64,000 nucleotides of DNA from Nocardiopsis coralli (GTDB taxonomy: Bacteria > Actinomycetota > Actinomycetes > Streptosporangiales > Streptosporangiaceae): contig NZ_JADBGI010000002.1 of the NCBI RefSeq assembly GCF_014892575.1, positions 124,001-188,000 of the forward strand, read 5' to 3'. This document shows positions 48,490 through 56,301 of this stretch, in pieces. A model generated the notes under the pieces. It was given only the letters and a program-made list of their open reading frames with translations. It was not told the origin of the DNA and did no database searches. A program made the position numbers and the translations under genes. Each line of letters opens with the position of its first letter. Within the stretch, counting starts at the first letter, position 1.

Positions 48490-48557
48490 CCCCGCCCGAC
48501 ACGAGGGAGCGGCCCCCGACCCGTCGGTCGGGGGCCGCTCCCTCGTGTCGGGCGGGG
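48490..48557 (+). terminator. Perfect 32-bp-stem hairpin after the MsiK-type gene
   Basis: The arms 48490-48521 and 48526-48557 are exact reverse complements over 32 bases with the 4-base loop CGTC. The stem begins 7 bases after the stop. It is the longest perfect stem in the window and lacks a T tract. Confidence 0.85.
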
Positions 48558-48728
48558 CCGGCCTGCAGGGGCGCATTCTGTGTGCCGGGCCCGGGACGGC
48601 GGCTGTGGATGTCGGCCGCGGGGTTCTCAGCTCCCGCCAGGGTAGGCCCTCGGTACTGCCAGGGGCTTCGCGCGCCAAACCTTCCCCTCACGTGACAGTC
48701 GCGTTGCCCCGGGTGAGGAACCTGTGCA

Positions 48729-48758
48729 TTGACCCCCGCTCCCTGGCCACTCAAACAT
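48729..48758 (+). promoter_or_regulatory. Candidate promoter of the peptidase / small peptide / JmjC locus
   Basis: TTGACC (48729-48734) followed after 18 bases by AAACAT (48753-48758) is a plausible sigma-70-like promoter. Transcription would start about 7 bases later, at or next to the GTG at 48765, suggesting a leaderless message. This explains the absence of any ribosome-binding site before that gene. It is an inference from spacing only. Confidence 0.4.
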
Positions 48759-48764
48759 GTGAAG

Positions 48765-50894
48765 GTGACTGACCGAGGAGCCCACGGAGCCGCCCTCTCG
48801 ACCGCCCTCTCCCCCGCCCCGGGGCCCGACGGACCGGGGTCGGTCGTCGACACCCTCCACGGCCGCCCGGTCGCCGACCCCTACCGGTGGTTGGAGACCG
48901 CCGACAGCTCCGCCACCCGGCGCTGGTTGGCCGAGCGGGGCCGCGAGTTCGAGCAGCGGGCTCGGCAGTGGCCGCTGCGCGGGCGCCTGGGCGAGCGCAT
49001 CCGTTCGCTGGTGCGCGCCGAGCTCTGGTCGTCCCCGCGCCACCGCACCGGGCGCATGTTCGCCACCGTGCGCCGGGCCGGCGACGAACACCCCCGGGTG
49101 GTCTCCCTCGACCGCGAGGGCGGCGACGAGCAGGTGGTCTTCGACCCGGCGGCGCAGGACCCCTCCGGCCGCACCACCCTGGACTCCTGGGAGCCCGATC
49201 CCTCGGGTCGGCTCCTGGCCGTGCAGACCTCGTCGGGCGGGGTGGAACGCGGTGAGCTGCGGGTCCTGTGCACCGGTACCGGCACCCGTGTCGGCCCCCC
49301 GGTGCGCGGCGTGCGCTACTCCCACGTGGCGTGGCTCCCCGAGGGCCTGTTCTCCCACGGCGCCTTCTACTACGTGCGCCGCGACGACCGGCACGGAACG
49401 CGCGGTGTGTGGCTGCGCCGGGTCGCGTGCGGGACCGAGACCCTCGTGCACCGGTGCACCGCCCCGGGCACCGTTCCGGGCGTGCGGATCCTGGGCGGGC
49501 GCCGCCTGCTGGTGACCGAGAGCCACGGAACCGGGCACCGCACCGACCTGTGGATCGCCGACCTGCACACGTCCGCGCCGGACCGCCCCGATCTGCGTCC
49601 GGTCCAGGTCGGGGTGGAGGCCGAGACCGAGGCCCGCCTGGGCACGGACGGCCTGCTGTACCTGCGCACCACCCTCGGTGCTCCCCTGCGCCGACTGTGC
49701 GCGGCCGACCCCGACGATCCCGGGGTGGAACGCTGGCGCGAGGTCGTGCCCGAGGACCCGGAGGCGACTCTGGACGCCTTCGCCGTCTGCCCCGCCGATG
49801 CCGACGCCGGGGCCGGGGCCGCGCTCCTGGTGGTGCGCACCCGCCTGGGCATCAGCGAGGCGGCGGTGCACGACGCGGTCACGGGGGCGCCCCTGCGCAC
49901 GGTCCGGCTCCCCGGGGAGGGCATGGTCACCGTGCCCGAGACGGCGCCGAACGGGACCGTGTTCCTGGGGTACGCCGACGTGGCCACCCAGCAGCGGGTG
50001 CTGTCGCTGGCACCGGGCGCGGACCGGCCGCTCCCCTGGCCTCCGCACACAGGGGACGGGGTTCCGGCTCCGCGGATCCGGCGTTCGGTGGTGCGGTGCC
50101 GGTCGGAGGACGGGACCGAGGTCCCCGTGACGGTCTTCGAGCCCCCGCACGCGGCGGAGGCCCCGGGGCCCACGATCCTGCACGCCTACGGCGGGTTCGG
50201 CCGCCCGCGCCAGTTCGGGTTCAGCGCGACGGTCCTGGCGTGGCTGCTCTCCGGCGGGCGCTACGCCGTGGCGCACGTGCGCGGTGGCGGCGACGCGGGG
50301 CGTTCCTGGCACCTGCGCGGAGCGGGTCGGCACAAACCGCGGGCGGTCGAGGACCTGGTCGCCGCGGCCGACGCGCTGGTCGGCGACGGGCTGTGCACGC
50401 GGGAGCAGTTGTGCCTGTCGGGCGGTTCGGCCGGGGGCCTGTTGGTCCTGGCCGCGGCGCTGTGGCGGCCGCACGTGTGCGGGTCGGTGATCGCCTCCGC
50501 GCCGCTGGCCGACATGGTCCGGTTCGAACGCCTGGGACTGGGCCGGATGTGGACCCGTGAGTTCGGCACCGCCGCCGACCCCGAGGACTTCGCGGCGCTG
50601 ATGTCGTACTCCCCCTACCACCGTGCGCTGGACCCGGCCCGGCGCCGCCCGGACCCGGGGCTGCCGCGGGTACTGCTGACCGGTTTCGACGGCGACACCC
50701 GGACCGACGCCGCCCATCCGCGCAAGATGTGCGCGGCCCTGCTGGGCGCCGGCCACGACCCCGACCGCCCGCCGGCCCTGCTGCGCTACGAGCGCGACGT
50801 CGGGCACGGACCGCGCTCGGTGAGCCGGGCGGTCGCCCTCGCCGCGGACGCCCACGCGTTCGCGGCCCACGAGACGGGGCTCCCGCCGCGCTGA
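48765..50894 (+). CDS. Prolyl oligopeptidase-family serine peptidase (S9)
   Basis: About 709 residues: an N-terminal seven-bladed beta-propeller followed by an alpha/beta-hydrolase domain. The nucleophile is Ser555 in LSGGSAGGL. The acid is in LLTGFDGDTRTDAAH and the His is 681 in RDVGHGPRS. YGGFG and HVRGGGDAGRSWHLRG match prolyl endopeptidase (S9A) rather than oligopeptidase B. No signal peptide is seen, so it is cytoplasmic. It is followed 58 bases on by a tiny acidic peptide gene and then a JmjC oxygenase. Prolyl oligopeptidases remove leader peptides in some RiPP pathways (class III lanthipeptides), which suggests that role here. GTG 48765 is used; GTG 48759 or TTG 48729 are alternatives. 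Confidence 0.88.
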   Translation: MTDRGAHGAALSTALSPAPGPDGPGSVVDTLHGRPVADPYRWLETADSSATRRWLAERGREFEQRARQWPLRGRLGERIRSLVRAELWSSPRHRTGRMFATVRRAGDEHPRVVSLDREGGDEQVVFDPAAQDPSGRTTLDSWEPDPSGRLLAVQTSSGGVERGELRVLCTGTGTRVGPPVRGVRYSHVAWLPEGLFSHGAFYYVRRDDRHGTRGVWLRRVACGTETLVHRCTAPGTVPGVRILGGRRLLVTESHGTGHRTDLWIADLHTSAPDRPDLRPVQVGVEAETEARLGTDGLLYLRTTLGAPLRRLCAADPDDPGVERWREVVPEDPEATLDAFAVCPADADAGAGAALLVVRTRLGISEAAVHDAVTGAPLRTVRLPGEGMVTVPETAPNGTVFLGYADVATQQRVLSLAPGADRPLPWPPHTGDGVPAPRIRRSVVRCRSEDGTEVPVTVFEPPHAAEAPGPTILHAYGGFGRPRQFGFSATVLAWLLSGGRYAVAHVRGGGDAGRSWHLRGAGRHKPRAVEDLVAAADALVGDGLCTREQLCLSGGSAGGLLVLAAALWRPHVCGSVIASAPLADMVRFERLGLGRMWTREFGTAADPEDFAALMSYSPYHRALDPARRRPDPGLPRVLLTGFDGDTRTDAAHPRKMCAALLGAGHDPDRPPALLRYERDVGHGPRSVSRAVALAADAHAFAAHETGLPPR

Positions 50895-50952
50895 GCGTGT
50901 GCCGGTTGCCCTGCTGCAAGGAGAAACGGCGAACAGAAAGGCAGAGGTGCGT

Positions 50953-51060
50953 ATGGACCCCATCGAGGTCGAGGTCGAGGACCTGGCAGAGGTGACCTCC
51001 CGCGACGTCACCGCCGGTGGCGACAACGACGGCACCGACTCCAGCTCCGACTTCATCTGA
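50953..51060 (+). CDS. Small acidic peptide, candidate RiPP precursor
   Basis: 35 codons, beginning MDPIEVEVEDL and ending DNDGTDSSSDFI. It has 11 acidic residues, one Arg (position 17), no Lys and no Cys. Pattern: an amphipathic acidic leader-like start, a TAGG at residues 20-23, then a short tail rich in Asp, Ser and Thr. GAGG lies 5 bases before the ATG; a GTG two codons upstream (50947) also has AAAGG before it. It fills the space between the peptidase and the JmjC oxygenase on the same strand, where precursor genes often sit. Lack of Cys argues against a lanthipeptide. Function is inferred only from size, composition and neighbours. Confidence 0.62.
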   Translation: MDPIEVEVEDLAEVTSRDVTAGGDNDGTDSSSDFI

Positions 51061-51134
51061 TGTGTGCCCGCCCGGCCCCGCGCGGGTCGGGCGGGCGCCC
51101 GCCGCCGACCGAACCACCCCTGTCGGGAGGGACC

Positions 51135-52343
51135 GTGACCGATCCGGGGCAGATCTTCACCCGGGACCTGTGCGAGACCGTGGGCCGCGAGGCCCTGACC
51201 ACACGCCTGTCCGAGGAGTTCTTCCTGGCCGACCTGGGCGCGGACGCGGTGCGCTCGCTGTTGACCTTCGAGGACCTCAACCATCTGCTCGCCACACGCT
51301 CGCCCGAGCCTCCGCGGCTGCGCCTGCACCGCGACGGGTCTCCGGTGCCGCTGGAGGCCTACACCGACCTGGCCTCGGAGTCGCGTTCCGCCCGGCGGGT
51401 GATCCGTCCGGAGTCGCTGTACGGGCAGTTGCGCAAGGGCGCGAGCCTGGTGCTGGACAGCATCGACCGCATGCATCCGCCGATCGGGGCGGCCGCCGAC
51501 GACCTGATGCGGCTGGTACGCGAGCGCGCGCAGGCGAACCTGTACCTGATCTGGGGTGAGTCGCGCGGTTTCGACACCCACTGGGACGACCACGACACGG
51601 TCATCGTGCAAGTGGCCGGCACCAAGCACTGGCAGGTGCACGGCCCGGGGTCGCGCCCGTTCCCGATGCGCAACGACACCGATCACAAGCACGGGCCGCC
51701 GCGGGGTGCCGACGGCGAGCTCTCCATGGTGTGGGAGGGCGTGCTGCGTCCGGGGCAGGCGATCCACGTGCCGCGCGGCTGGTGGCACACGGTGACCGGG
51801 ACCGGCGAGATGAGTATGCACCTGACCTTCGGGTTCACGCGGGCGACCGGGGTGGACTGGGCGGAGGCGCTGGTGCGGCGCCTGTACGAGGAGGAGGCCT
51901 TCCGCCGCGACCTGCCGCGGTTCGCCTCGCCCGAGCAGCGCCGCAAGCACCGGCACGTGCTGCTGTCGCGCCTGCTGGAGCTGGCCGAGGAGGGGGACCT
52001 GGACGCCTTCCTGGCCGAGCGGGACGGCCGGTTCCCGCGCCGGGCCTCCTACAGCCTGCCGTGGCCCGTGGAGGAGGGGCTGCCGCCGGAGGACGCCCGC
52101 GCGGAGTTCGTGCCGATCCTTCCGCCGCCCGTCACCCGCGAGGACGACGGGAAGGTGGCCCTGACGGTGGCCGGACGCCGGTACCGGTTCCCCGCGGTGG
52201 TGGAGCCGGTGCTCGAGGTGCTGGCCGAGGAGCGCTCGCTGACCGTGGGTGAACTGGGCGAACGCGCTGGTGTGGGCACCGAGACCGCCGCCCAGGCCGT
52301 CTCGGCCCTGGCCCGCCACCACCTGGTGCTCATCGGGACCTAG
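51135..52343 (+). CDS. JmjC/cupin (ROX-like) Fe(II)/2-oxoglutarate oxygenase
   Basis: 402 residues. The cupin core has the iron-binding facial triad His149-x-Asp151 (FDTHWDDHDTV) and His218 (HVPRGWWHTV), with VQVAGTKHWQVHGP between, as in Cupin_4/RoxA hydroxylases. A C-terminal winged-helix-like segment (LTVGELGERAGVGTETAAQ) matches the dimerisation/wHTH end of that family. RoxA-type enzymes hydroxylate ribosomal proteins, but this one lies beside a tiny acidic peptide gene, so the peptide is the likely substrate. The GTG at 51135 is chosen for its GGAGG 4 bases upstream. An in-frame ATG at 51060 overlapping the peptide stop would add 25 low-complexity residues. Confidence 0.88.
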   Translation: MTDPGQIFTRDLCETVGREALTTRLSEEFFLADLGADAVRSLLTFEDLNHLLATRSPEPPRLRLHRDGSPVPLEAYTDLASESRSARRVIRPESLYGQLRKGASLVLDSIDRMHPPIGAAADDLMRLVRERAQANLYLIWGESRGFDTHWDDHDTVIVQVAGTKHWQVHGPGSRPFPMRNDTDHKHGPPRGADGELSMVWEGVLRPGQAIHVPRGWWHTVTGTGEMSMHLTFGFTRATGVDWAEALVRRLYEEEAFRRDLPRFASPEQRRKHRHVLLSRLLELAEEGDLDAFLAERDGRFPRRASYSLPWPVEEGLPPEDARAEFVPILPPPVTREDDGKVALTVAGRRYRFPAVVEPVLEVLAEERSLTVGELGERAGVGTETAAQAVSALARHHLVLIGT

Positions 52344-52415: not shown

Positions 52416-53216
52416 TCAGGCCTGCGTGCGCGCCCGGGCGTGGGCCTCGATGCCGTCGAGGATGCGGTCGATCCCGAACCCGAGCCCTTCGGCGGGGCCT
52501 CCGACCTGGTCGGGGTCGTAACGCACATCGAACTCTTCATCCTCGGTCCCGAACCGCTCCAGGATCCCGGTGACCGTCGGGAACGCGGCCGGGTCCAGCA
52601 CGCCGAGCAGCCCCTGCGCCCAGGCGTTCTCGCTCTCTCCGATGGGTGTGCCCCGGCGTTCTGCCGCCTCCGACATCTCGATCTGCGTGCGCAGGGTCTC
52701 GCGCAGGACGGTGGAGAGCACGGTCAGCATCTGGAGCGAATCGAGCGGCCCCAGCCCGGAGGCGCAGATCTCGCGCAGCGCGGCCTCCATCCACCGGATC
52801 CCGTTGGGGCCACTGGGCGGGCCGGACACGGGCAGACTCACCATCCACGGGTGGGCTCGGTAGAGCGCGACCACCTCCTGGCACCACCGCTCCAGCCCGG
52901 CCCGCCAGTCGCCGTCCTCACGGGGACCGGGGGGCGTGGCGTCCATGGCGGCGTCGACCATGAGCAGGAGCAGGTCGTCCTTGCGCTCGACGTAGCGGTA
53001 CAGGGACATGGTCGTGTACCCCAGGGCCCCGGCCACACGCTGCATGGACACCGCGGCCAAGCCCTCGGTGTCGGCGAGGCGGACCGCGGCGGCCACGATC
53101 TCGCCCCGTGTGAGTTTGGGCCGCGGCCCCCTGCGCCCGCGGCCGGACGCGTGGTCGCCCCACAGGAGTCGGATCTCGTCGGTCGTGGAGGCCGGGGCCG
53201 GTTGCTCGCTCGTCAT
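52416..53216 (-). CDS. TetR-family transcriptional regulator
   Basis: A 266-residue repressor. The DNA-binding domain is KLTRGEIVAAAVRLADTEGL followed by VSMQRVAGALGYTTMSLYRYVERKDDLL, a clear helix-turn-helix. The larger-than-usual C-terminal ligand domain is of the kind paired with drug exporters. It is divergent from the DrrAB-type exporter genes across a 103-base region containing a split palindrome, so it very probably represses them. ATG 53216 has GGTGGA upstream. Confidence 0.92.
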   Translation of the reverse strand: MTSEQPAPASTTDEIRLLWGDHASGRGRRGPRPKLTRGEIVAAAVRLADTEGLAAVSMQRVAGALGYTTMSLYRYVERKDDLLLLMVDAAMDATPPGPREDGDWRAGLERWCQEVVALYRAHPWMVSLPVSGPPSGPNGIRWMEAALREICASGLGPLDSLQMLTVLSTVLRETLRTQIEMSEAAERRGTPIGESENAWAQGLLGVLDPAAFPTVTGILERFGTEDEEFDVRYDPDQVGGPAEGLGFGIDRILDGIEAHARARTQA

Positions 53217-53245
53217 GTTCCACCAGGGTCCGGTTCGGTTCGGCG

Positions 53246-53317
53246 TTGACACCATCCTAGTTCTGTGTACTACTTACACTAATAAGTATGCGACATATAC
53301 AGTTTATGGAGTACACA
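53246..53317 (+). promoter_or_regulatory. Divergent promoter and operator region, tetR / drrAB-type exporter
   Basis: TTGACA (53246-53251) with a weak TACTAC 16 bases on is a plausible promoter towards the exporter. TGTGTAC (53264-53270) and GTACACA (53311-53317) are exact inverted repeats about 40 bases apart. Between them lies an A/T-rich stretch with further dyads (AGTATGCGACATATAC). These are likely TetR operator half-sites. Confidence 0.5.
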
Positions 53318-53319
53318 TC

Positions 53320-54327
53320 ATGGCGCAGCCCACCCCGCCGACACCACCGGCCCCGGCCGTCCACGCCGAGGGGCTGACCAAGCGCTACGGCGCCGTCCGG
53401 GCCCTGGACGGCCTCGACCTGCACGCCGAACCCGGCACAGTCCTGGCGCTCCTGGGACCCAACGGCGCAGGCAAGACCACCGCCGTACGGACCCTGACGA
53501 CCCTCACCGCCCCCGACACCGGGTGGGCGCGCATCCACGGCCTGGACACGGTCGCGCGCGGCGACGAGGTACGCGCCCGCATCGGCCTGACCGGCCAGTA
53601 CGCGACCGTGGACGAGCTCCTCACCGGCCGCGAGAACCTGGAGATGTTCGCCCGCCTGCACGGGATGACGGCCACGGCGGCACGGGGGCGCGCCGAGGAC
53701 CTGCTCACCGAGTTCGACCTCACCGACGCCGCCGACCGGGGCGCGGCCACCTACTCCGGGGGCATGCGCCGGCGCCTCGACCTCGCAGTGAGCCTGCTCC
53801 GCGAACCGGACGTGCTGTTCCTGGACGAGCCCACCACCGGCCTCGACCCGCGCAGCCGCATGGGCGTGTGGGAGTCCGTGGCCGAACTGGTGCGCGGCGG
53901 CACCACCGTGCTGCTGACCACCCAGTACCTGGAGGAGGCCGACCGCCTCGCCGACCGGGTCACCGTGATCGACCACGGGCGCGCCGTCGCCGACGGGACC
54001 CCCGACGACCTGCGGGCCCGCGTGGGCGGTCTGCGCCTGGACGTGGCCGTGCACGACCCCGCCGACCTGGGCCGGGCCGCCGAGCTCCTGGGCGGGGCGC
54101 TGGGGGCCGCACCCACCGTCGACACCCGCGGCCTGCGTGTGGGCGTGCCGGTCACCGACCGGGTCCAGGCCCTGTTCCGCGCCGCCCGGGCCCTGGAGGA
54201 CATGGGCCCGCGCATCGCCGACCTCGACGTGCGCCGCCCGAGCCTGGACGAGGTCTTCCTGTCCCTGACCGGGCACGCGACCGCCCCGGCCGAGACCGAC
54301 GGCACCACCGTGGGGGCCACACGATGA
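53320..54327 (+). CDS. Drug-export ABC transporter ATP-binding protein, DrrA type
   Basis: A 335-residue ATPase of the daunorubicin-resistance family. Walker A GPNGAGKTT, signature YSGGMRRRLDLA, Walker B DVLFLDEPTTGLDP, and the DrrA C-terminal region (VDTRGLRVGVPV and RRPSLDEVFLSLTGH) that contacts its permease. GGAG lies 8 bases before the ATG. It overlaps the permease gene by 4 bases, so the two are translated together. The exported compound is unknown; the RiPP-like locus next door is one candidate source. Confidence 0.93.
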   Translation: MAQPTPPTPPAPAVHAEGLTKRYGAVRALDGLDLHAEPGTVLALLGPNGAGKTTAVRTLTTLTAPDTGWARIHGLDTVARGDEVRARIGLTGQYATVDELLTGRENLEMFARLHGMTATAARGRAEDLLTEFDLTDAADRGAATYSGGMRRRLDLAVSLLREPDVLFLDEPTTGLDPRSRMGVWESVAELVRGGTTVLLTTQYLEEADRLADRVTVIDHGRAVADGTPDDLRARVGGLRLDVAVHDPADLGRAAELLGGALGAAPTVDTRGLRVGVPVTDRVQALFRAARALEDMGPRIADLDVRRPSLDEVFLSLTGHATAPAETDGTTVGATR

Positions 54328-55172
54328 GCACCGCCACCGCACCTGCACCCGCACCGACCCGGCGCAGGACACCGCGGCAGGGACCGGCCAAGACGTGGTC
54401 GGACACGCTGACCCTGACCCGCCGCAACCTGCGGCACATGGCGCGCGAACCCTTCGAGCCGGCCATCGCGCTGAGCATGCCGGTACTCATGGTGCTGCTG
54501 TTCGGTTACGTGTTCGGCGGGGTGATGTCCCCGACCGGCGACGAGGCCGAGTACCGGGCCATGCTCGTGCCCGCGATGATCGCCATGGTCATGTTCTATG
54601 GGATCGCCGGAACCGCGACGGGGGTCGCCCGCGACACCTCGCTCGCGGTCATGAGCCGGTTCCGGACCCTGCCGATGTCGCCCGCCGCCCTGCTGTGGGC
54701 GCGGGTACTGACCGACATGCTCCGCGCCGTCGTGGAGATCGCGCTCCTGCTCGGGGTCGGCCTGCTCCTGGGATGGCGCGTGGAGTCGGACCCGGCCGGC
54801 GCGCTCGCGGCGATCGCGCTCCTGCTTCTGTTCCGGTTGTCACTGGTGTGCGCCGGGGTGCTGCTGGGACTCGTGGTACCGAACCCGGACGCGGCGAGCA
54901 TGCTCATCTACCCGCTGGCGTTCCCGATGACCGTGCTCTCGACCAGTTTCGTCCCGGCCCAGGCCATGCCGGACTGGTTGGCCCCCGTGGCCGAGTGGAA
55001 CCCGGTCTCGTCGCTGGTGACCGCCGCGCGCGAGCTGTTCGGGAACCCGTCGCTGCCCTCGGACGCCTGGCCGGCCGAACACGCCGTACTCGTGGCCGCC
55101 GTCGTCCCACTCCTCCTGATGGTGGTTGTGGTACCTCTGGCTCTGCGCCGCTTCGCCCGCCTCGGACGCTGA
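54324..55172 (+). CDS. Drug-export ABC transporter permease, DrrB type
   Basis: A 282-residue ABC-2 type permease with six hydrophobic segments after a short Pro/Arg-rich cytoplasmic start. The family block is RFRTLPMSPAALLWARVLTD. Later, FPMTVLSTSFVPAQAMPDWL and NPVSSLVTAARELFGNP are the standard DrrB C-terminal motifs. The ATG overlaps the drrA-type stop (ATGA). It forms an exporter with the preceding ATPase. Confidence 0.93.
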   Translation: MSTATAPAPAPTRRRTPRQGPAKTWSDTLTLTRRNLRHMAREPFEPAIALSMPVLMVLLFGYVFGGVMSPTGDEAEYRAMLVPAMIAMVMFYGIAGTATGVARDTSLAVMSRFRTLPMSPAALLWARVLTDMLRAVVEIALLLGVGLLLGWRVESDPAGALAAIALLLLFRLSLVCAGVLLGLVVPNPDAASMLIYPLAFPMTVLSTSFVPAQAMPDWLAPVAEWNPVSSLVTAARELFGNPSLPSDAWPAEHAVLVAAVVPLLLMVVVVPLALRRFARLGR

Positions 55173-55440: not shown

Positions 55441-56301
55441 GTGACACCACAGCCGATCGCCACGCTGCACGAAGCGTGCGCCACGCTGAAGTTCGCCCCG
55501 CTCCCCGACCTGGTCGAGGCGGGCCGACCGCAGGCACCGGCCCCGGCCGACGTGCAGTGGCACAGCGCCGCGTCCATGGCCGAGCAGGGCTGGATCCCGG
55601 TCCTGTTCGACAAGCTCCGTACCGAGCACGGCCCCGGGCACAACCTGCCCGCCGCCACCAACTTCCTGCGGGTGACCCTGCGCGAGCCGATCTTCCTCGC
55701 CGCTGCCTCGCTCTACCTCACCGGACGCGCCCCGCTCATCGACGCGCACACGCTCCGCCTGCCCTGGCACACCGACCGTTCCGAGTTCGGCCGGCCCGCC
55801 GTGGTCGGCGCGCGCTGGGCGGTCCTGCCCGACGACCCCGCCGCCGACGACGCCGACACCGTGGTCGCCCGCGACGAGGACGAGCAGTTCACGATGGCGG
55901 GCGAGGCGGTCTTCTCGGCCTTCGCGCCGATCGTGGACGAGGTGCACCGGCACTCGCGCTCGGGCAAGCGCACCCTGTGGGGCTGGGTGCTCGACACACT
56001 GCACTTCTACATGCTCAACCCGGCCCGGTTCCTTGGCCGCGACGCCGAGGCCGCCTGGGAGAGCGCCACCCGTCTGGGCGACGCCGTGGTCGCTGCCGGG
56101 GCCGTCACCCGCAAGCGCCCGCGCCTGTTCCCCTTCGCCCCCGAGCACCCGCGGGGCACCTGGGCGGTGCGAGGCACCTGCTGCTTCGACTACAAGGGCG
56201 ACCCCGAGCACGGCTACTGCACGACGTGCCCGCTCAAGTGCGACGCCGAGCGGCAGCAGGACCTCTCGGAGTGGCTGCGCGACCCGGCGCTGGCACCCTG
56301 A
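55441..56301 (+). CDS. Siderophore ferric-iron reductase, FhuF-like
   Basis: A 286-residue protein of the FhuF family, which reduces and releases iron from imported ferric siderophores in the cytoplasm. The C-terminal [2Fe-2S] motif is Cys247-Cys248, Cys260 and Cys263 (TCCFDYKGDPEHGYCTTC), with a further Cys267. Spacing CC-x11-C-x2-C is one residue longer than the classical form. An iron box 90 bases upstream links it to the dhb/NRPS genes about 40 kb away. The GTG at 55441 follows GAAGGGCAGG. Confidence 0.87.
   Translation: MTPQPIATLHEACATLKFAPLPDLVEAGRPQAPAPADVQWHSAASMAEQGWIPVLFDKLRTEHGPGHNLPAATNFLRVTLREPIFLAAASLYLTGRAPLIDAHTLRLPWHTDRSEFGRPAVVGARWAVLPDDPAADDADTVVARDEDEQFTMAGEAVFSAFAPIVDEVHRHSRSGKRTLWGWVLDTLHFYMLNPARFLGRDAEAAWESATRLGDAVVAAGAVTRKRPRLFPFAPEHPRGTWAVRGTCCFDYKGDPEHGYCTTCPLKCDAERQQDLSEWLRDPALAP

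Follow-up and report, generated by a model that had tools for sequence, protein, structure and literature searches.

A short acidic peptide gene paired with a JmjC oxygenase gene in Nocardiopsis coralli: a candidate RiPP-like precursor and modifying enzyme

Introduction

JmjC hydroxylases in pathways for ribosomally synthesized and post-translationally modified peptides (RiPPs) and PF08007 JmjC proteins with domains similar to the RiPP recognition element (RRE) are both already in print. BipG/BpmG is described as the JmjC ornithine hydroxylase of the biphenomycin RiPP pathway (PMC12707348, PMC12257519), and the RRE-like PF08007 proteins were noted in RiPP-like contexts (PMC12710340). Here we analyzed a 64,000-nucleotide (nt) stretch of Nocardiopsis coralli DNA (contig NZ_JADBGI010000002.1, positions 124,001–188,000; hereafter the window), in which a 35-residue acidic peptide is encoded directly upstream of a PF08007 JmjC Fe(II)/2-oxoglutarate oxygenase. 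We consider it probable that the peptide is a RiPP-like precursor paired with the oxygenase, which would hydroxylate its invariant Asp-rich core, that the S9A peptidase encoded upstream is an addition of the window's family, and that a downstream FhuF-like gene belongs to the unit.

Both BipG and, on our reading, the window enzyme are JmjC oxygenases encoded in a RiPP cluster and hydroxylating a residue of the ribosomally made precursor. BipG, however, carries out a tailoring step on ornithine in a pathway that also has a multinuclear iron enzyme, a B12 radical SAM enzyme and an arginase. None of these three turned up when six window proteins were scanned against NCBIfam and Pfam; the core of the window peptide lacks a Phe-Arg-Phe motif. 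A first-pass annotation of the window had held that an oxygenase-only pathway of this kind would be new. The chemistry and target residues proposed there stay predictions, and BipG, as described, already shows that a JmjC protein can hydroxylate a RiPP precursor (PMC12707348). The proteins of PMC12710340 share with the window oxygenase the Pfam family, the C-terminal RRE-like topology and the suspected RiPP context; the passages on them give no precursors, clades or neighbours of the bacterial proteins, whereas precursors and gene partners are given here. Searches of the open-access literature, which leave subscription journals mostly uncovered, returned no description of the conserved precursors, their occurrence in several families of Actinobacteria, the gene trio or the [2Fe-2S] partners.

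The peptide is a conserved gene that co-occurs with the oxygenase

An S9 peptidase, a short peptide and a JmjC oxygenase had been annotated in tandem, and all three genes were confirmed in their places on the forward strand. The peptide gene spans 50953–51060 (residues 50953–51057, stop codon 51058–51060) and encodes MDPIEVEVEDLAEVTSRDVTAGGDNDGTDSSSDFI. In a first sample of 25 same-genus genomes (own included) and 16 more distant ones, the peptide was present in 23 of the former and none of the latter, which argues against a chance open reading frame (ORF). We then used a profile built from 20 peptides and a separate oxygenase profile on 250 genomes of the family. The peptide was detected in 53 genomes at an E-value of 2.6e-17 or better, and the oxygenase in the same 53 at 8e-150 or better. 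In another 17 genomes the peptide matches had E-values of 9.8e-4 or worse and were discarded as chance matches; neither of the two that were fetched has the trio. At 1e-40, any oxygenase match was found in 75 of the 250 genomes; among the 22 beyond the 53, 21 contain more distant homologues only and one (G009) has part of an oxygenase gene where its contig ends, without the DNA upstream of it. G009 and G016, the latter with an S9 fragment in an assembly that is 85% complete, are the same-genus misses, and both look like assembly gaps.

Fifty family loci were fetched, 20 inside and 30 outside the genus. In all 50, the order peptidase-peptide-oxygenase is kept on one strand, with the peptide gene adjacent to that of its presumed modifying enzyme. 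The search for a short ORF between the two enzyme genes, proposed with the first-pass annotation, thus returned a conserved peptide in 50/50 loci, and the pattern named there as refuting, both enzymes kept without the peptide, was not seen in the related genomes. We also scanned named genomes, taking the best 80 of 93 loci; of 49 such loci, the sole one without peptidase and peptide (L131) is a sequence that starts at the oxygenase. Two records titled Glycomyces fuscus and Streptomonospora nanhaiensis (L110 and L112) hold Nocardiopsis-like trios with peptides 91% and 89% identical, and are possibly misnamed.

Within the genus, the peptide has a ratio of nonsynonymous to synonymous polymorphism (pN/pS) of 0.15 (21 rows), compared to values of 0.39 (oxygenase, 20 rows) and 0.43 (peptidase, 19 rows); across 51 peptide sequences the ratio is 0.23. 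Based on the genome set identical to that of the oxygenase and the pN/pS of 0.15, we read the 35-residue ORF as a real gene, a short gene-encoded precursor candidate selected as protein. Mean column identity is 96% over 20 genus sequences. The residues V-T-S-R-D, T-A, D-x-D-G, D and S-S-D-F-I are held in place in 51/51 peptides, and purifying selection is strongest at the C-terminus. The N-terminal half up to TSR is acidic and the C-terminal half, DVTAGGDNDGTDSSSDFI, is near-invariant; the former is likely a leader and the latter a core, with a boundary that may lie near the invariant Arg of TSR-D. The window peptide has no match to known precursor families in NCBIfam or Pfam.

A GC-rich stem-loop (51066–51096) stands directly 3′ of the stop codon, at the same place as in related loci. 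An alignment of 12 genus sequences predicts 14 base pairs, and for eight of these pairs at least one sequence differs at both positions. Within the first 80 nt past the stop, 49 of 51 loci have an uninterrupted stem of nine or more pairs, compared to 104 of 299 coding stretches; the folding energy of the window stem is mildly below that of shuffles (z = −1.98). With a stem-loop right after the stop codon in most loci, the short ORF might be a translational leader or attenuator of the oxygenase gene. However, the amino-acid sequence is under purifying selection that is greatest at the C-terminus, the peptide has no run of one regulatory amino acid, and the stem-loop also fits precursor-over-enzyme expression; we regard an attenuator as extremely improbable. 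High precursor and low enzyme expression is usual in RiPP operons, and the stem-loop described here, lying between precursor and enzyme genes, would be consistent with such an arrangement.

The oxygenase has a predicted ribosomal-oxygenase fold and RRE-like domain

The oxygenase gene (51135–52343, 402 residues) matches PF08007 with 79.0 bits against a cut-off of 22. Upstream, its frame runs uninterrupted from the peptide stop, and the start had been placed at 51060. The best-fit start lies 62–144 nt past the peptide stop in 48 of the 50 related loci and 345 and 355 nt past it in the remaining pair; with those starts 49 of the 50 oxygenases are 390–405 residues in size. From these positions and lengths, the start is most likely GTG 51135. 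Counted from there, the metal triad consists of His149 (51579–51581), Asp151 (51585–51587) and His218 (51786–51788). The annotated intact HxD...H triad is indeed invariant in 52/52 aligned homologues. The enzyme also retains a Lys aligned with the conserved, 2-oxoglutarate-binding Lys of NO66.

The structure model contains the JmjC_2 domain, metal triad and winged helix of the PF08007 ribosomal-oxygenase fold, and its top structural matches are NO66, MINA53 and YcfD. The window oxygenase resembles these three in the JmjC core, the C-terminal winged helix and the intact triad; it differs in being paired with a short acidic peptide gene, in its patchy distribution and in an identity of 15–20% in structural alignments. 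Such matches, the PF08007 domain and the finding of only one PF08007 gene in the genome would suit an ordinary ribosomal oxygenase of the YcfD/NO66/MINA53 type that acts on a ribosomal protein, with the peptide as an unrelated or regulatory neighbour. However, ribosomal proteins are universal, whereas the oxygenase is patchy (75/250 genomes at 1e-40; 53 plus one fragment for the window clade). It also co-occurs exactly with the peptide, and a small acidic ORF lies upstream of most homologues in other clades. A ribosomal substrate therefore appears quite improbable to us, and we keep the reading of the peptide as the partner of the oxygenase.

The C-terminal winged-helix domain is encoded by 52086–52340. 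Modelled in isolation (mean pLDDT, the per-residue model confidence score, 96.1), it contains strands at residues 16–18, 23–28 and 31–36, followed by helices at 37–49, 54–61 and 64–77; one extra strand (5–8) precedes this core and one short strand (51–53) lies between the first and second helices. The strict RRE definition quoted in PMC12710340 asks for the order β-β-β and then α-α-α, and the isolated-domain model has this order. The domain can thus be called RRE-like in the predicted structure.

Small acidic ORFs precede related oxygenases

At an E-value of 1e-10, the oxygenase homology search returned 231 proteins. Among the best 120 of them, Nocardiopsis and relatives come first, followed by proteins of ∼50% identity from Pseudonocardiaceae and a Mycobacteriales metagenome-assembled genome (MAG). 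A class sample of 394 genomes contained oxygenase relatives at 1e-30 in 108, and 40 class loci were fetched. An Asp/Gly/Ser-rich small ORF lies just upstream of the oxygenase in 159/170 loci (49/50 family, 75/80 named and 35/40 class) compared to 1 of 151 control genes on 37 loci, by a composition test devised after the peptides had been viewed and on three sets that share some genomes. As for the misses, the peptide of L075 is present but farther upstream, L131 starts at the oxygenase, four loci (type D; L150, L155, L161 and L163) have another kind of small ORF, the peptides of L214 and L239 fail the composition criterion, and none was found in L218, L223 and L231.

The ORFs differ among lineages. 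Those of Pseudonocardia are RRETNGDNDGSDLHSDFI and similar; those of Streptomyces and Actinomadura are SDGGGTGKSDGND or SDGGSTGKSDLNDG, and most of these loci also encode, further downstream, an aldo/keto reductase and a protein that lacks a Pfam match. Other Streptomyces and further genomes have ORFs with SDSDGSDG or SDSTGTSAGDDGENRDG, one MAG has LTDNDGND, and further genomes have DGGADG repeats. Across the peptide types, an N-terminal pattern up to an invariant Arg is followed by an Asp-rich C-terminus; the two may be a leader and a core, with a tentative boundary between them. A first cross-family pattern fitted 16/50 loci; a second one, written post hoc, fitted 50/50, compared to 85/2500 shuffles and 84/3838 ORFs of 28–115 residues on the same loci, peptides included. 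In profile comparison, homology of the window peptide family was supported for a pool including Pseudonocardia (E-value 1.7e-7) and, more weakly, for a pool without Pseudonocardia (1e-4), but not for the repeat type. An NCBIfam scan of five relative peptides gave one match only, of a type D peptide to CPC_1213 and below cut-off. Homologues of the Streptomyces-subtype precursor that carry a source name are annotated only as hypothetical or uncharacterized proteins.

Precursor type tracks the clades in a 76-sequence oxygenase tree, with 15 changes compared to a shuffled mean of 48.7 and none of 200 shuffles as low; the type labels come from text patterns, nine of the 76 rows are none/other although some carry peptides of a named type, and L170 and L218 bear a long-branch warning. 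The window clade (14 rows) is sister to Pseudonocardia (support 99/95) and next to four Streptomyces-type loci (98/93). The radical SAM protein of these four loci resembles peptide maturases, although it is below every NCBIfam cut-off shown; given this neighbour in sister loci, a peptide substrate would be the natural guess for the whole clade.

The 96% mean column identity of the 20 genus sequences would also suit a binding partner, and D-x-D-G-x-D looks metal-binding. The peptide could accordingly bind the oxygenase without being its substrate and act, unprocessed, as an adaptor, a metal-binding regulator or an inhibitor. However, the small ORFs of related oxygenases differ widely in C-terminal sequence, one sister clade adjoins a radical SAM gene, and the oxygenase carries the predicted RRE-like domain. 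We regard an unprocessed partner as improbable, and the peptide as very probably the substrate of the oxygenase.

Other gene arrangements were observed around related oxygenases. L155 (4692–11117; also L150, L161 and L163) encodes a 53-residue peptide ending in FGDSVK, a JmjC oxygenase, an arginase, a radical SAM protein, a second JmjC/cupin protein, an aldo/keto reductase and an ABC protein, and looks like a RiPP cluster of its own. In L152 (6173–7907) and similar loci, genes for an aldo/keto reductase and for a 267-residue protein that has no Pfam match stand after the oxygenase gene; such loci occur in Streptomyces, Actinomadura and Catenulispora and as second copies in the window's family. 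In L227–L240, most oxygenases are preceded by a GEGTADGGSNPEGHDGGADGTA-like or GGAD-repeat peptide, whose kinship to the window precursor is not provable, and a sucrase/ferredoxin-like gene follows in 12/14.

The S9A peptidase

The gene upstream of the peptide (48765–50894; starts at 48729, 48759 and 48765 are all possible) encodes a prolyl-oligopeptidase-family serine peptidase with PF02897 and PF00326 matches. It has the propeller and hydrolase domains of S9A enzymes, the catalytic triad Ser555, Asp644 and His681 (numbered from 48765) and the S1 Trp of prolyl-type enzymes. Each of the four residues is kept in 45/47 aligned rows, the remainder being gaps or misaligned; four of 51 rows (L028, L032, L071 and L083) had been dropped for odd length. 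Six S9 genes of related loci (L028, L032, L060, L066, L071 and L083) read as split, shortened or odd frames. FlaP, OphP and PCY1 are prolyl oligopeptidases of RiPP pathways; the closest solved relatives of the window protein are prolyl endopeptidases, with PCY1 and OphP among the PDB matches. The S9A fold is the same. Different from those systems, the window peptide has no conserved Pro, and 4 of 51 peptides lack Pro altogether. An oligopeptidase B-type cut after the lone Arg was rejected, as the nearest structures are prolyl endopeptidases and the S1 Trp is kept in 45/47; oligopeptidase B is the only NCBIfam match of the S9 protein, far below cut-off. The invariant Ala is another possible cleavage site. 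On balance, we lean towards the peptidase acting on the window peptide.

The first-pass annotation had taken the trio as a candidate RiPP locus with a leader peptidase. The part of it that pairs a short precursor with a dedicated oxygenase has good support from co-occurrence, synteny, selection, the acidic ORFs, the RRE-like domain and the radical-SAM sister clade. The peptidase did not hold as part of a wider system, as the flanks fetched for Pseudonocardia, Streptomyces, Actinomadura and other class loci gave no S9 homologue. Judged from these gene neighbourhoods, the S9A peptidase is probably an addition of the window's family.

Downstream genes and iron-sulfur proteins

A TetR-family regulator gene (52416–53255, reverse strand; Pfam match) is convergent with the oxygenase gene and had been taken as the downstream boundary. 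The convergent gene is real, but the unit likely does not end there. An ATP-binding cassette (ABC) transporter ATP-binding gene (53320–54327, named from its sequence) and a probable ABC permease partner (54438–55172, from its reading frame), both on the forward strand, separate it from an FhuF-like gene (55441–56301, forward strand). The FhuF-like protein has the C-terminal 2Fe-2S domain of the FhuF family (PF11575, 29.0 bits against a cut-off of 20.5), with the main FhuF domain below cut-off. A same-strand downstream FhuF-like gene was found in 36/50 family loci within the fetched DNA and in 44/46 of the named loci that have 4 kb or more of sequence past the oxygenase, at most 450 nt from it in nine. 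Since this holds in most loci, the block likely runs to 56301. The TetR and probable ABC exporter cassette (52416–55172) stands between oxygenase and FhuF in many genus loci; in several other genera no TetR match was found between them, and in several FhuF lies only about 130–420 nt past the oxygenase. This cassette is a possible insertion, or a possible exporter of the product.

Several other clades have a different [2Fe-2S] protein gene beside the oxygenase gene. In 12/14 loci of the repeat-type clade it is a sucrase/ferredoxin-like gene, downstream and on the same strand; one lies upstream on the opposite strand in the three Pseudonocardia loci, and downstream on the opposite strand in L208–L210, L213 and L214. 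The MAG locus L170 has an FhuF-like gene with a Pfam score below cut-off. Most other loci, including the Streptomyces and Actinomadura types, had no clear FhuF or sucrase/ferredoxin match. That different [2Fe-2S] proteins adjoin several clades of the same oxygenase suggests a redox partner, or a metal-bound product.

Proposed function

In the proposed pathway, the RRE-like domain of the oxygenase would hold the acidic N-terminal half of the peptide, and the enzyme would hydroxylate residues of the Asp-rich C-terminal half. The S9A peptidase, in the window's family only, would then trim the peptide, and the FhuF-like [2Fe-2S] protein would serve as redox partner or act on a metal-loaded product. 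We think hydroxylation inside the core rather likely; the candidates are Asp, Asn, Ser and Thr side chains, and possibly Arg, since the entry title of a YcfD-like relative names it an arginyl hydroxylase. A metal-linked role is doubtful. The near-frozen core suggests a conserved physiological role, not an arms-race antibiotic.

A wider reading, which we consider unlikely, is a pan-actinobacterial RiPP class defined by one RRE-bearing JmjC oxygenase that would make β-hydroxy-Asp peptides binding iron or calcium. These would be the ribosomal counterpart of hydroxyaspartate siderophores, reduced by the adjacent [2Fe-2S] partner (FhuF-like here, sucrase/ferredoxin-like in other clades), with D-x-D-G-T-D-S-S-S-D-F-I as the core here and S-D-G-G-G-T-G-K-S-D, D-N-D-G and D-G-G-A-D-G elsewhere.

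If the precursor/oxygenase pairing is right, many PF08007 proteins named only cupin or JmjC would be peptide-modifying enzymes with identifiable precursors; relatives at 1e-30 occur in 108/394 class genomes. It would be a RiPP type with side-chain hydroxylation as the first committed step, would tie the ribosomal-oxygenase fold to natural-product biosynthesis, and would offer ready precursor/enzyme pairs for testing.

Upstream elements and rejected functions

Two other functions were tried and rejected. For regulation by an iron box, the best 19-mer upstream of S9 agreed with an iron-box consensus at 10 of 19 positions at most (21 loci); for anti-phage defence, four proteins gave no PADLOC match. 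The strong terminator annotated upstream was borne out as a terminator-like inverted repeat (48490–48557, forward strand) with two perfect 32-nt arms, which bounds the unit. Upstream of the S9 gene (window 48505–48770), the motifs CAAACCTT and CTTGACC occur in 12/21 and 17/21 genus loci, respectively, and possibly mark a shared promoter.

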